From Dyella sp. SG609 (GTDB lineage Bacteria; Pseudomonadota; Gammaproteobacteria; Xanthomonadales; Rhodanobacteraceae), in contig NZ_JAAZQJ010000001.1 of assembly GCF_012275375.1 (NCBI RefSeq), positions 682,001 to 746,000 on the forward strand: 64,000 nucleotides of DNA, written 5' to 3'. Shown one piece after another: positions 17,356-56,115 of this stretch. Below the pieces are notes generated by a model. The model had not been told where the DNA came from and ran no database searches. It was given only the letters and a program-made list of their open reading frames with translations. Both the position numbers and the translations under genes were made by a program. Within the stretch, counting starts at the first letter, position 1. Each line of letters begins with the position of its first letter.

Positions 17356-17441
17356 GTAGGTTGGGGTGAGCCGCAGGCGAACCCCAACAGGCCCGCCACT
17401 GTGTCGCAACGTTGGGGTTCGCTTTGCTCACCCCAACCTAC
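17356..17441. repeat. palindromic intergenic element, copy 1 of 5
   Basis: 86 bp with termini GTAGGTTGGGGTGAGC and GCTCACCCCAACCTAC. Internal GCGAACCCCAAC and GTTGGGGTTCGC flank a variable centre. Each half can fold alone or the whole can form one long stem. It lies between aguA and aguB. Confidence 0.9.
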
Positions 17442-24266: not shown

Positions 24267-24352
24267 GCAGGTTGGGGTGAGCCATAGGCGAACCCCAACG
24301 GACCTCGCAGGCTGCCGCACCGTTGGGGTTCGCCGCGCTTACCCCAACCTGC
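24267..24352. repeat. palindromic intergenic element, copy 2 of 5
   Basis: 86 bp from GCAGGTTGGGGTGAGC to GCTTACCCCAACCTGC, with AACCCCAAC and GTTGGGGTT inside. Both ends carry the compensating G-C change relative to copy 1 (GCAGG with CCTGC), so pairing of the arms is preserved. It separates the STAS-like gene from the asnB leader promoter. Confidence 0.9.
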
Positions 24353-24380
24353 GCCGGCCGCGAGGAAGGTAAAAAAGCTC

Positions 24381-24410
24381 TTGCGCGGCGCAGCAAAGCT
24401 GTGCTTTAGT
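24381..24410 (+). promoter_or_regulatory. putative promoter of asnB leader transcript
   Basis: TTGCGC at 24381-24386 and TTTAGT at 24405-24410 with an 18-base spacer. The -10-like box ends 7 bases before the leader ATG at 24418, so the transcript would begin at or within a base or two of the start codon, that is, nearly leaderless. This fits the absence of any Shine-Dalgarno sequence before that ATG. Confidence 0.45.
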
Positions 24411-24417
24411 CGGCCTC

Positions 24418-24546
24418 ATGTCCTGTGCCTTCGCCATCCAGCGCTCCGCCTTCGCCGCCTACGCGGCCGGTCTGCGCGCATCCGCGAACGCGCTGAATAA
24501 CAACGCCAATAACAATCCCCGCATCGACGGGTGGGCCGGCGTGTAG
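24418..24546 (+). CDS. asparagine-rich leader peptide of asnB
   Basis: A 42-codon frame, ATG at 24418 and TAG at 24544-24546. Seven codons are Asn: residue 24, then NNNANNN at 27-33 (24496-24516, a mixture of AAT and AAC). The rest is Ala/Arg-rich and otherwise unremarkable. Position, length, the clustered codons for the product amino acid of the downstream gene, and the terminator beginning 27 bases after the stop are the hallmarks of an attenuator leader peptide. No ribosome binding site precedes it and no alternative in-frame start exists nearby, so leaderless initiation is inferred. It would report availability of charged tRNA-Asn. Confidence 0.75.
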   Translation: MSCAFAIQRSAFAAYAAGLRASANALNNNANNNPRIDGWAGV

Positions 24547-24585
24547 ACACGAAAAAAGTCTCGAATCACGCAAAAGGGCCCGCCG
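24528..24585 (+). promoter_or_regulatory. candidate antiterminator pairing
   Basis: CGG (24528-24530) plus GGGCC (24533-24537) can pair with GGCCC (24577-24581) plus CCG (24583-24585): 8 bp with a small internal loop. This would occupy the 5' arm of the terminator and so exclude it. A ribosome stalled on the Asn run (24496-24516) would leave the first segment free; one that reached the stop codon would cover it. Hand-derived; no folding energy was computed. Confidence 0.5.
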
Positions 24586-24606
24586 ACAAGCGGGCCCTTT
24601 CTTTTT
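24573..24606 (+). terminator. attenuator terminator of asnB
   Basis: Perfect 11-bp stem AAAGGGCCCGC / GCGGGCCCTTT (24573-24583 and 24590-24600) with a 6-base loop, followed by CTTTTT. It lies between the leader peptide and asnB, 47 bases before the asnB ATG, where it would block transcription unless prevented from forming. Confidence 0.85.
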
Positions 24607-24653
24607 CCCCGTACGCAGTTTTGCGCGTCATCCAACCTCAGGAGCGTCAAACC

Positions 24654-26333
24654 ATGTGTTCCATCTTCGGCATGTTCGACCTGCAACCCGGCGACGACCT
24701 GGCCGCCCTGCGCCGGCAGGCGCTGGAACTCTCGCAGCGCCAGCGCCATCGCGGGCCGGACTGGAGCGGCGTGTTCGTCGACGCCGGGGTGATCCTGGTG
24801 CACGAGCGCCTGGCCATCGTCGACCCGGCCAGCGGCTCGCAGCCATTGCGCTCGCGCGACGAGAGCCTGGCCCTGGCGGTGAACGGCGAGATCTACAACC
24901 ACCGCGAGCTGCGCGCCGCCAGCGGCTACGACTTCACCACGGGCTCGGACTGCGAAGTCATCAACGCGCTGTACCGCGAACTGGGGCCGGAGGAGTTCCT
25001 GGCGCGCGGCCTCAGGCAGCTCAACGGCATCTTCGCCTTCGCGCTGTGGGATGCGGCCACGCAGCGCTACCTGATCGCCCGCGATCCGATCGGCGTCTGC
25101 CCGCTGTACTGGGGCCACGACGCGGAAGGGCGCTTGTGCGTGGCCTCGGAAATGAAAGCCCTGGTCGGCATCTGCGCGGACGTCTCCGCCTTCCCGCCGG
25201 GCCATGTCTACGACAGCGCCACCGGCGAAGTGACGCGCTACTACCGCAGGAACTGGCGTTCCTATGAAGTCACCCATGGCCAGCAGCTGGAACCGTCCGA
25301 ACTGCGCGGCGCCTTCGAACAGGCCGTGCATCGCCAGCTGATGACCGACGTGCCTTACGGCGTGCTGCTCTCCGGCGGCCTGGATTCCTCGCTGGTGGCC
25401 GCCTGCGCCGCACGCTTCGCGCGCGAACGCATCGAGGACGACGACCGCAGCGAAGCCTGGTGGCCGCGCCTGCATTCCTTCGCCATCGGCCTGGAAGGCT
25501 CGCCGGACCTTGCCGCCGCCCAGGTGGCCGCCGATGCGCTCGGCACCGTGCACCACGGCTTCGTCTACACCTTCTGGGAAGGCCTGGACGCGCTGCCGGA
25601 AGTGATCCGCCATATCGAGACCTACGACGTCACCACCATCCGCGCCTCCACCCCGATGTACCTGCTGGCGCGGCGCATCAAGGCGATGGGGGTGAAGATG
25701 GTGCTGTCGGGCGAGGGTTCGGACGAAATCTTCGGCGGTTATCTGTACTTCCATAAGGCGCCGTCGCCGGAAGCCTTCCACGAGGAAACCGTGCGCAAGC
25801 TCGACGCCCTGCACAGCTTCGACTGCCTGCGCGCCAACAAGGCGATGATGGCCTGGGGTGTGGAGGCGCGCGTGCCGTTCCTGGACCTGGAATTCCTCGA
25901 CGTGGCGATGGGCCTGGACGCCAAGTACAAGATGGCCGGCCACGGCCGCATCGAGAAGGCCGTGCTGCGCGAGGCTTTCCAGGGCGCGCTGCCGGATTCG
26001 ATCCTGTGGCGGCAGAAGGAGCAGTTCAGCGACGGCGTCGGCTATGGCTGGATCGACGGGCTGAAGGCGCATGCGGAACAAGTGGTCAGCGACCGCGAAT
26101 TCGCCGCCGCCTCCACGCGCTTCCCGCACAACCCGCCGGCCACCAAGGAGGCCTACCTGTACCGGCGCATCTTCGAGCAGCACTTCCCCGGCGAGGCCTG
26201 CGCGGCCACGGTGCCGGGCGGCAAGTCGATCGCCTGTTCCTCACCGGCCGCGCTGGCCTGGGATCCGGCCTTCGCCGCCGCGGCCGACCCGTCGGGGCGC
26301 GCGGTGCGCGGGGTGCATCAGCAGGCACTGTAG
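24654..26333 (+). CDS. asnB: asparagine synthetase B, glutamine-hydrolysing
   Basis: Makes asparagine from aspartate, ATP and glutamine. 559 residues (E. coli AsnB 554). N-terminal class II glutaminase with the nucleophile Cys2 (MCSIFG), RHRGPDWSG and NGEIYNHREL; C-terminal synthetase with the pyrophosphate loop LLSGGLDSSLVAA and LSGEGSDEIFGGY. CAGGAG precedes the ATG at 24654. Expression is probably controlled by the leader and terminator just upstream. The TAG stop at 26331-26333 is formed by the first bases of palindromic repeat copy 3. Confidence 0.97.
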   Translation: MCSIFGMFDLQPGDDLAALRRQALELSQRQRHRGPDWSGVFVDAGVILVHERLAIVDPASGSQPLRSRDESLALAVNGEIYNHRELRAASGYDFTTGSDCEVINALYRELGPEEFLARGLRQLNGIFAFALWDAATQRYLIARDPIGVCPLYWGHDAEGRLCVASEMKALVGICADVSAFPPGHVYDSATGEVTRYYRRNWRSYEVTHGQQLEPSELRGAFEQAVHRQLMTDVPYGVLLSGGLDSSLVAACAARFARERIEDDDRSEAWWPRLHSFAIGLEGSPDLAAAQVAADALGTVHHGFVYTFWEGLDALPEVIRHIETYDVTTIRASTPMYLLARRIKAMGVKMVLSGEGSDEIFGGYLYFHKAPSPEAFHEETVRKLDALHSFDCLRANKAMMAWGVEARVPFLDLEFLDVAMGLDAKYKMAGHGRIEKAVLREAFQGALPDSILWRQKEQFSDGVGYGWIDGLKAHAEQVVSDREFAAASTRFPHNPPATKEAYLYRRIFEQHFPGEACAATVPGGKSIACSSPAALAWDPAFAAAADPSGRAVRGVHQQAL

Positions 26334-26412
26334 GTTGGGGTGATAACCCCAACGGACCTTCCATGCTGACCGGACGTCCGTTGGGGTTCGCCTGCGGCTC
26401 ACCCCAACCTAC
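26330..26412. repeat. palindromic intergenic element, copy 3 of 5
   Basis: 83 bp from GTAGGTTGGGGTGAT to CTCACCCCAACCTAC. The left arm has lost the GCC...GCG segment and reads GTTGGGGTGATAACCCCAAC. Its bases 26331-26333 are the stop codon of asnB, so insertion took place at or into the gene end. Confidence 0.9.
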
Positions 26413-26467: not shown

Positions 26468-27593
26468 ATGATCGAGACCAATCCGATCCTTGCGCAGATC
26501 GCGGACCTCAAGGGCCGCGTCGAGTCGCTTAGGGGGTATCTTTGACTACGCCACCAAGCGTGAGCGTCTCGAAGAAGTAAGCCGCGAACTGGAAAGTCCC
26601 AACGTCTGGGACGATCCGCCGCGCGCGCAGGAGCTGGGCCGCGAACGCGCCCGCCTGGAAACCATCGTCAGCGGCATCGACACGCTCACGGCCGGCCTCG
26701 CCGACGCCGGCGACCTGCTGGAGATGGCCGTCGCCGACGACGACGAATCCACCGTGCTGTCCATCGTCAGCGACCTCGGCAAGCTCGACGCCCAGGTGAG
26801 CAAGCTGGAATTCCAGCGCATGTTCTCCGGCAAGATGGACTCGGCCAATGCCTTCGTGGACATCCAGGCCGGGGCCGGCGGCACCGAGGCGCAGGACTGG
26901 GCGGAAATCCTGCTGCGCATGTACCTGCGCTGGGCCGAATCGCGCGGCTGGAAGGCCGAGCTGCTGGAAGTCAGCGGCGGCGACGTGGCCGGCATCAAGT
27001 CCGCCACCTTCCGCGTGGAAGGCGACTACGCCTACGGCTGGCTGAAGACCGAGATTGGCGTGCACCGCCTGGTGCGCAAGAGCCCGTTCGACTCCGACAA
27101 CCGCCGTCACACCAGCTTCACCTCGGTGTTTGTGTCGCCGGAAGTCGACGACGACATCGATATCGAGATCAATCCGGCCGACCTGCGCACCGACGTGTAC
27201 CGCTCGTCCGGCGCCGGCGGCCAGCACGTGAACAAGACCGAGTCGGCCGTGCGCATCACCCACATGCCCTCGGGCGTGGTGGTGGCCTGCCAGACCGAGC
27301 GCAGCCAGCATGCCAACCGCGACCGCGCGATGAAGATGCTGAAAGCCAAGCTGTACGAGCTGGAACTGCAGAAGCGCAATGCCGAGAAGGACGCGCTGGA
27401 AGCGACCAAGTCCGATATCGGCTGGGGCAGCCAGATCCGCAACTACGTGCTGGACCAGAGCCGCATCAAGGACCTGCGCACGGGCATCGAACGCTCCGAT
27501 ACGCAGAAGGTGCTGGACGGCGACCTCGACGAATTCGTCGAAGGCAGCCTGAAGGCCGGCCTGGACGCGGGCGCCAAGCGCATCGACGCCTGA
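26468..27593 (+). CDS. prfB: peptide chain release factor 2, with programmed +1 frameshift
   Basis: RF2 releases peptides at UAA and UGA. Translation starts at ATG 26468 ([20 protein letters not shown]), meets an in-frame TGA at 26543-26545 after 25 codons and must shift +1 to continue from GAC at 26544, giving about 374 residues. The remaining frame has the RF2 tripeptide SPF in [10 protein letters not shown] and the catalytic GGQ in [11 protein letters not shown]. The reading frame of the second part is open further upstream but only as a shadow. It should be annotated as one gene joined at the frameshift. Confidence 0.97.
26531..26546 (+). promoter_or_regulatory. prfB recoding signal
   Basis: Internal Shine-Dalgarno AGGGGG (26531-26536), slippery CTT (26540-26542) and the TGA C stop context, with the same spacing and bases as the classical E. 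coli site. When RF2 is scarce, slow termination at TGA favours the +1 shift, so RF2 controls its own synthesis. Confidence 0.95.
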
Positions 27594-52240: not shown

Positions 52241-52327
52241 GTAGGTTGGGGTGAGCCAAAGGCGAACCCCAACAATGCGACCACGATGCAATGCGTTGGG
52301 GTTCGCCTTTGGCTCACCCCAACCTAC
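52241..52327. repeat. palindromic intergenic element, copy 4 of 5
   Basis: 87 bp, GTAGGTTGGGGTGAGCC to GGCTCACCCCAACCTAC, with AAAGGCGAACCCCAAC and GTTGGGGTTCGCCTTT inside. Arms are perfect complements over at least 32 bp. It sits between the convergent outer-membrane-protein and ku genes. Confidence 0.95.
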
Positions 52328-56028: not shown

Positions 56029-56115
56029 GTAGGTTGGGGTGAGCGCAGCGAACCCCAACGCGGTGTTCCCGGTGCCGGGCACGTTGGGGTTCGCCTTTGG
56101 CTCACCCCAACCCAC
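56029..56115. repeat. palindromic intergenic element, copy 5 of 5
   Basis: 87 bp, GTAGGTTGGGGTGAGC to CTCACCCCAACCCAC; the last arm has one change (CCCAC for CCTAC). It lies between convergent ligD and the DUF2383 gene. Confidence 0.93.

Follow-up and report, generated by a model that had tools for sequence, protein, structure and literature searches.

The trp, his, leu, thr, ilv and phe operons of proteobacteria are controlled by ribosome-mediated attenuators. In such systems, as set out in the excerpted text of PMC1183508, a short ORF rich in codons for the product amino acid, mutually exclusive RNA pairings and an intrinsic terminator precede the biosynthetic gene. We have analysed a leader with the same layout in front of asnB, the gene of a glutamine-hydrolysing asparagine synthase, in 64,000 nucleotides of the Dyella sp. 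SG609 genome (hereafter the window). It differs from the proteobacterial examples in that it would read asparagine, in its target, asnB, and in that it probably has no Shine-Dalgarno site and starts at its AUG.

The peTrpL/rnTrpL leader of Sinorhizobium has a leaderless start. Its peptide comes from a transcription attenuator (excerpt of PMC7298713), as that of the candidate asnB leader would, but it responds to Trp and has a function in trans as well, whereas any trans role of the asnB leader would be hypothetical. Leader peptides without a 5' UTR, including LeuL, TrpL1 and IlvL, are described for Streptomyces lividans in the available portion of PMC8079986. These also lie before amino-acid genes and are leaderless, as is proposed for the asnB leader; however, they belong to Actinobacteria and, in that portion, concern Leu, Trp, Ala, Ile, Met and Thr, with none for Asn. 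Among the asparagine genes of Firmicutes, asnS is mentioned as a T-box target in a small number of species (PMC2494555, in the part consulted). There, tRNA charging is read at a terminator, as proposed for the asnB leader, but no T-box is listed at the latter and a translating ribosome is the proposed sensor.

The original prediction knew of no Asn-specific leader peptide for asnB. Likewise, we recognised neither an Asn leader peptide nor an asnB attenuator in the literature or Rfam among the matches listed; mention in reviews is possible. The attenuators named in the literature, including the accessible sections of PMC2965389 and PMC4833913, sense other amino acids, and a term search of the accessible text of PMC1262725 gave no matches. 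The mechanism is familiar; the specificity (Asn) and the target (asnB) would be new.

The leader, its start and its asparagine codons

Feature coordinates are collected in Table 1. Re-reading the sequence returned the coordinates originally given for the leader, with its seven asparagine codons, six of them in NNNANNN; the seventh (24487-24489) lies ahead of the main run. The two strands of the window hold 526 ATG ORFs of 15-60 amino acids, none of which has as many Asn as this one (seven; the next has four). With the base composition of the window, the chance of at least seven Asn in 41 codons is 8e-7. The NNN-x-NNN codon pattern of the leader, AAYAAYAAYNNNAAYAAYAAY, occurs only once in the 5.13-Mb genome, at this locus. 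Compared with shuffled sequences, the whole-leader fold is more stable, with a z of -2.5 and 2 of 200 shuffles equally good.

Table 1. Features of the leader-asnB unit and neighbouring repeats (window coordinates).
Feature	Coordinates	Strand	Remarks
-35-like element TTGCGC	24381..24386	+	Spaced 37 nt from the A of the leader ATG
-10-like element TTTAGT	24405..24410	+	End lies 8 nt from the leader A; read from the sequence
Leader peptide ORF	24418..24546	+	42 codons; ATG at 24418, stop TAG at 24544-24546
Asn run AAT AAC AAC GCC AAT AAC AAT	24496..24516	+	Regulatory codons
Segment 1:2 hairpin	24518..24531	+	24518-24521 with 24528-24531; fold -5.7 kcal/mol
Segment 2 of antiterminator	24530..24543	+	24530-24537 and 24539-24543
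Segment 3, partner of segment 2	24567..24584	+	24567-24571 and 24577-24584
Intrinsic terminator 3:4 and T run	24573..24606	+	Hairpin 24573-24600, T run 24602-24606; two-sided changes in relatives
Shine-Dalgarno-like AGGAG of asnB	24640..24644	+	91 of 112 distinct loci have such a site ahead of asnB
asnB, glutamine-hydrolysing asparagine synthase B	24654..26333	+	NCBIfam PRK09431
REP-/BIME-like copies	17360-17437, 24271-24348, 26334-26408, 52245-52323, 56033-56111		

Across the 112 distinct loci described below, the number of Asn codons per leader varies from 4 to 10. At five core columns of the 74 thinned leaders of family f1, Asn is found in 70/74, 67/74, 70/73, 68/74 and 65/71 cases, with AAT:AAC ratios of 46:24, 43:24, 38:32, 42:26 and 28:37, respectively. 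Asn is therefore kept at these columns in at least 90% of leaders while the two codons alternate, and most of the earlier residues are variable. Since AAC and AAT are swapped at columns that stay Asn, this comparison shows that the regulatory Asn codons are under coding selection.

Upstream, the T-A-G region of the -10-like element is conserved in the consensus of relatives, and in 105 of the 112 loci TTG[CT] is spaced 35-37 nt from the leader A. Leader starts were picked among in-frame ATGs partly by the presence of TTG[CT] within about 32-42 nt upstream, so that only the narrowness of the spacing is informative. A Shine-Dalgarno-like site is found ahead of the leader in only 4 of the 112 loci (3 of 119 with slightly different starts). 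Together, this spacing and the rarity of such sites fit a leaderless start: the transcript would begin at 24417-24418, probably at the AUG itself and with no Shine-Dalgarno site. A sigma-70 consensus scan of the leader region found no promoter.

The terminator and its competing pairings

A perfect 11-bp terminator stem with a loop of 6 and a following CTTTTT is present exactly where it had been proposed after the leader stop. A scan of 601 bases gave 3 terminator-like sites where shuffles would give 0.6. In all 112 distinct leader loci a terminator stem begins 19-34 nt past the leader stop. In an alignment of 58 sequences, 99.2% of terminator cells are paired and two-sided changes occur in 58 cells compared with 15 in shuffles, a figure matched by none of 500 shuffles. 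Counted as pairs with a two-sided change there is no excess (4 compared with 3.6 in shuffles).

The pairing of 8 bp that had been proposed to exclude the terminator is real, but its ends were slightly off: 24528-24537/24577-24585 should read 24530-24537/24577-24584, including one G-U. The latter stretch falls within the left arm of the terminator. After a break, a second antiterminator helix (24539-24543 with 24567-24571), missed in the original prediction, adjoins the stop codon. At least five perfect pairs of this helix are present in 57 of 79 loci, compared with 21% of shuffles.

Taken alone, the 2:3 pairing of the window is not beyond chance (p = 0.31 when the last nine codons are resampled synonymously); it is the relatives that support it. 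The mean for 2:3 over 119 loci is -21.2 compared with -16.2 under synonymous resampling, with p <= 0.05 in only 39. Each family's own pairing reaches -21.4 (94 f1 loci) or -21.6 kcal/mol (16 f2 loci), whereas swapping partners between f1 and f2 gives -13.6 and -14.7 kcal/mol, so the own pairing is better by 7-8 kcal/mol. The second family has a different terminator (in many f2 loci its arm is CCCGCATCGGCC while the last leader codons hold GGCCGATGCGGG), and the partner in those last codons has changed along with it. In a strongly thinned set of 21 loci, own pairings average -19.9 compared with -18.0 when permuted (P = 3e-4); the own segment 3 is ranked first in only 5 of these, and that of the window is 13th. 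The antiterminator 2:3 excludes the terminator and reaches under a ribosome at the stop codon; it is significant across families, not for the window alone. The 1:2 hairpin is visible in f1 but reaches p <= 0.05 in only 8 of 79 loci, so that a protector hairpin common to the relatives is a weakly supported candidate.

The leading edge of a ribosome lies about 11 nt beyond the A-site codon. With a ribosome placed on the window sequence at each of three Asn codons in turn, the RNA left uncovered folds as the antiterminator (-25.2 kcal/mol); when it is placed at the stop codon, only the terminator forms (-22.1 kcal/mol). When the fold is run without a ribosome and with RNA polymerase at 24590, where segment 4 is still unmade, 2:3 is already present, and an untranslated leader might therefore read through.

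Distribution in relatives and genome context

We first considered the best 80 of 490 asnB loci, 77 of which carry an Asn-rich leader and a terminator. Of the other three, two (L047 and L049) are cut by a contig edge and one (L083) is without a leader. The contig of L083 is labelled Rhodococcus maanshanensis, with an asnB 83% identical to that of Dyella; this reflects either gene transfer or a labelling problem. A second set was obtained by searching 151 further genomes of the order and taking the upstream DNA of all 89 further places scoring above 700 bits. All 44 further genomes of families f1-f3 with an asnB at least 77% identical have the leader and terminator (7 of these loci duplicate loci of the 80-locus set); the leaders of L100 and L127 have three Asn each. 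The leader is absent from both f1/f2 asnB genes at 64-65% identity. In families f5, f6, f8, f10 and f11 it occurs at 1 of 43 outgroup loci, for one of which (L151) the upstream DNA is only 325 nt long. At the exception, L141 from a single f8 genome, an Asn-rich leader with terminator is present in diverged form (MFAIYNTINTTNNRLLRSAGSF), either an old remnant or of separate origin.

The 119-locus set used above holds seven duplicated loci, leaving 112 distinct sequences. L064, L078, L100 and L127 carry the leader but are absent from both because of a 420-nt cut or a four-Asn threshold. The distance from leader stop to asnB ATG is 75-280 nt, and more than 400 nt in L064; repeat-like insertions are seen between terminator and asnB in this and other Rhodanobacter-type loci. 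The original prediction had proposed a check in close relatives, and this was run: frame and Asn codons are conserved, as are the terminator and the competing pairing.

Among 185 genomes searched in the class, the only match above 700 bits outside the order is that of G288, with no Asn cluster upstream of its asnB. Neither the E. coli nor the Aeromonas asnB has an Asn-rich leader within 700 nt upstream; the sole E. coli frame with several Asn runs into asnB. Given its near-universal presence in f1-f3 and 1 of 43 occurrence in the outgroup families, the switch looks ancestral to the branch holding Rhodanobacteraceae and a second family, probably Xanthomonadaceae (f2). Matches to RF02236, a Xanthomonas sRNA family, were found neither in 27 genomes nor in the controls, and the search is thus uninformative on this naming.

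The identity of the gene downstream of the leader and terminator was upheld by its match to PRK09431 (asparagine synthase B; 851 bits, cut-off 499). It is 98% identical to asnB of D. marensis, and the genome is that of a Dyella close to this species. AsnRS is present; asnA and gatB were searched for in this genome and neither was found. Nor was a second full-length AsnB of this type found, although a 706-aa frame has a partial AsnB-like match and could be another asparagine source. If these genes are indeed missing, most of the asparagine that the cell makes for charging tRNA would likely come from AsnB, as would suit an attenuator reading Asn-tRNA. No leader was seen at asnS of this genome. 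A His leader at hisG, sought as a positive control, was not seen and a poly-His pattern search was no help, so that this genome provides no positive control from another attenuator.

Two other features of the neighbourhood were observed. A REP-/BIME-like dispersed repeat of paired GTTGGGGT/ACCCCAAC palindromes has five copies in the window, two of which flank the leader-asnB unit. In addition, prfB lies downstream of asnB with a CTTAGGGGGTATCTTTGA motif at 26528, that of the known programmed frameshift.

Proposed mechanism and alternative explanations

In the proposed mechanism, RNA polymerase would begin transcription at the leader ATG or beside it, and a ribosome would load directly on the 5' AUG. 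With ample Asn-tRNA, the ribosome would translate past the Asn codons, reach the UAG stop and cover segment 2; segment 3 would then pair with 4, the terminator would form and asnB would remain untranscribed. With scarce Asn-tRNA, it would stall in NNNANNN, covering segment 1 and leaving segment 2 free, and 2:3 would form before segment 4 is made, allowing transcription to proceed into asnB. We consider it very probable that asnB is under a ribosome-mediated transcription attenuator sensing charged tRNA-Asn; most likely, the switch turns asnB on when the cell is short of asparagine. From comparison come the selection on Asn codons, the conserved terminator, the conserved and rightly placed competing pairing and the constant association with asnB; the start site, ribosome stalling and the response to asparagine are what we infer.

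The leader might instead encode a functional small protein, or a peptide or RNA acting in trans like peTrpL/rnTrpL, with the terminator simply ending its own transcript and asnB having a separate promoter. The promoter-terminator unit is indeed self-contained, and leader peptides with trans functions have been published (excerpt of PMC7298713). However, most residues outside the Asn core vary, which is ill-suited to a functional peptide, and the last codons track the terminator sequence between families; we regard this as improbable as a replacement for attenuation, although the leader may have a trans role in addition. Variability also weighs against nascent-peptide arrest, in which the peptide rather than tRNA supply would stall the ribosome on asparagine or another ligand, as with ErmCL or TnaC. 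A peptide-encoding leader with conserved residues ahead of a regulated terminator would be expected there too, but only the Asn of the run are strongly conserved, their number and grouping vary (4-10 over the 112 loci) and the residues following the run differ between genera, making arrest very improbable.

The remaining explanations dispense with translation or with regulation. A T-box, riboswitch or protein-binding attenuator would share the terminator with a competing pairing, but nothing in Rfam, T-box or other known leader, reaches its gathering score in 24270-24800, where the T-box covariance model is also absent among the matches listed with E up to 5. As synonymous swapping of the Asn codons needs translation, such a device is hardly credible. 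Nor is it credible that a chance ORF precedes an ordinary terminator: the non-significance of 2:3 in the window alone would allow it, but it is contradicted by conservation in relatives, and the rarity of the Asn run and the AAC/AAT swapping rule it out.

In addition to charged tRNA-Asn, a ribosome-mediated attenuator at asnB might read a further signal, the efficiency with which tRNA-Asn decodes. A single tRNA, which can carry queuosine at its wobble position, serves both AAU and AAC, so an AAU-rich run could read queuosine supply. AAU makes up 349 of 802 leader Asn codons compared with 93 of 701 in asnB (112 distinct loci), and the leader stop is UAG in 95 of 112 distinct loci compared with 15 of 97 for asnB. 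That the AAU-rich run and a stop read only by RF1 tune the attenuator to queuosine supply and release speed is a speculative and unlikely extension; if true, asparagine would share control of asnB with a vitamin-like modification of tRNA. On plainer readings, AAU keeps structure out of the Asn run, and UAG is used in part because it suits the antiterminator helix.

Our analysis adds to the original prediction the second antiterminator helix, the signs of a leaderless start, the range of taxa that carry the switch, its equivalent form with another sequence in the second family, the 1:2 hairpin (weakly supported) and the genome context (AsnRS, asnA, gatB). If the proposed attenuator is correct, leader-peptide attenuation would extend to asparagine, and the control of what is apparently the main asparagine-making enzyme in a branch of the order would be explained. 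Over 110 distinct forms of the switch occur naturally, one of them re-sequenced in a second family, and in this genome a closed loop seems to link AsnRS and AsnB.
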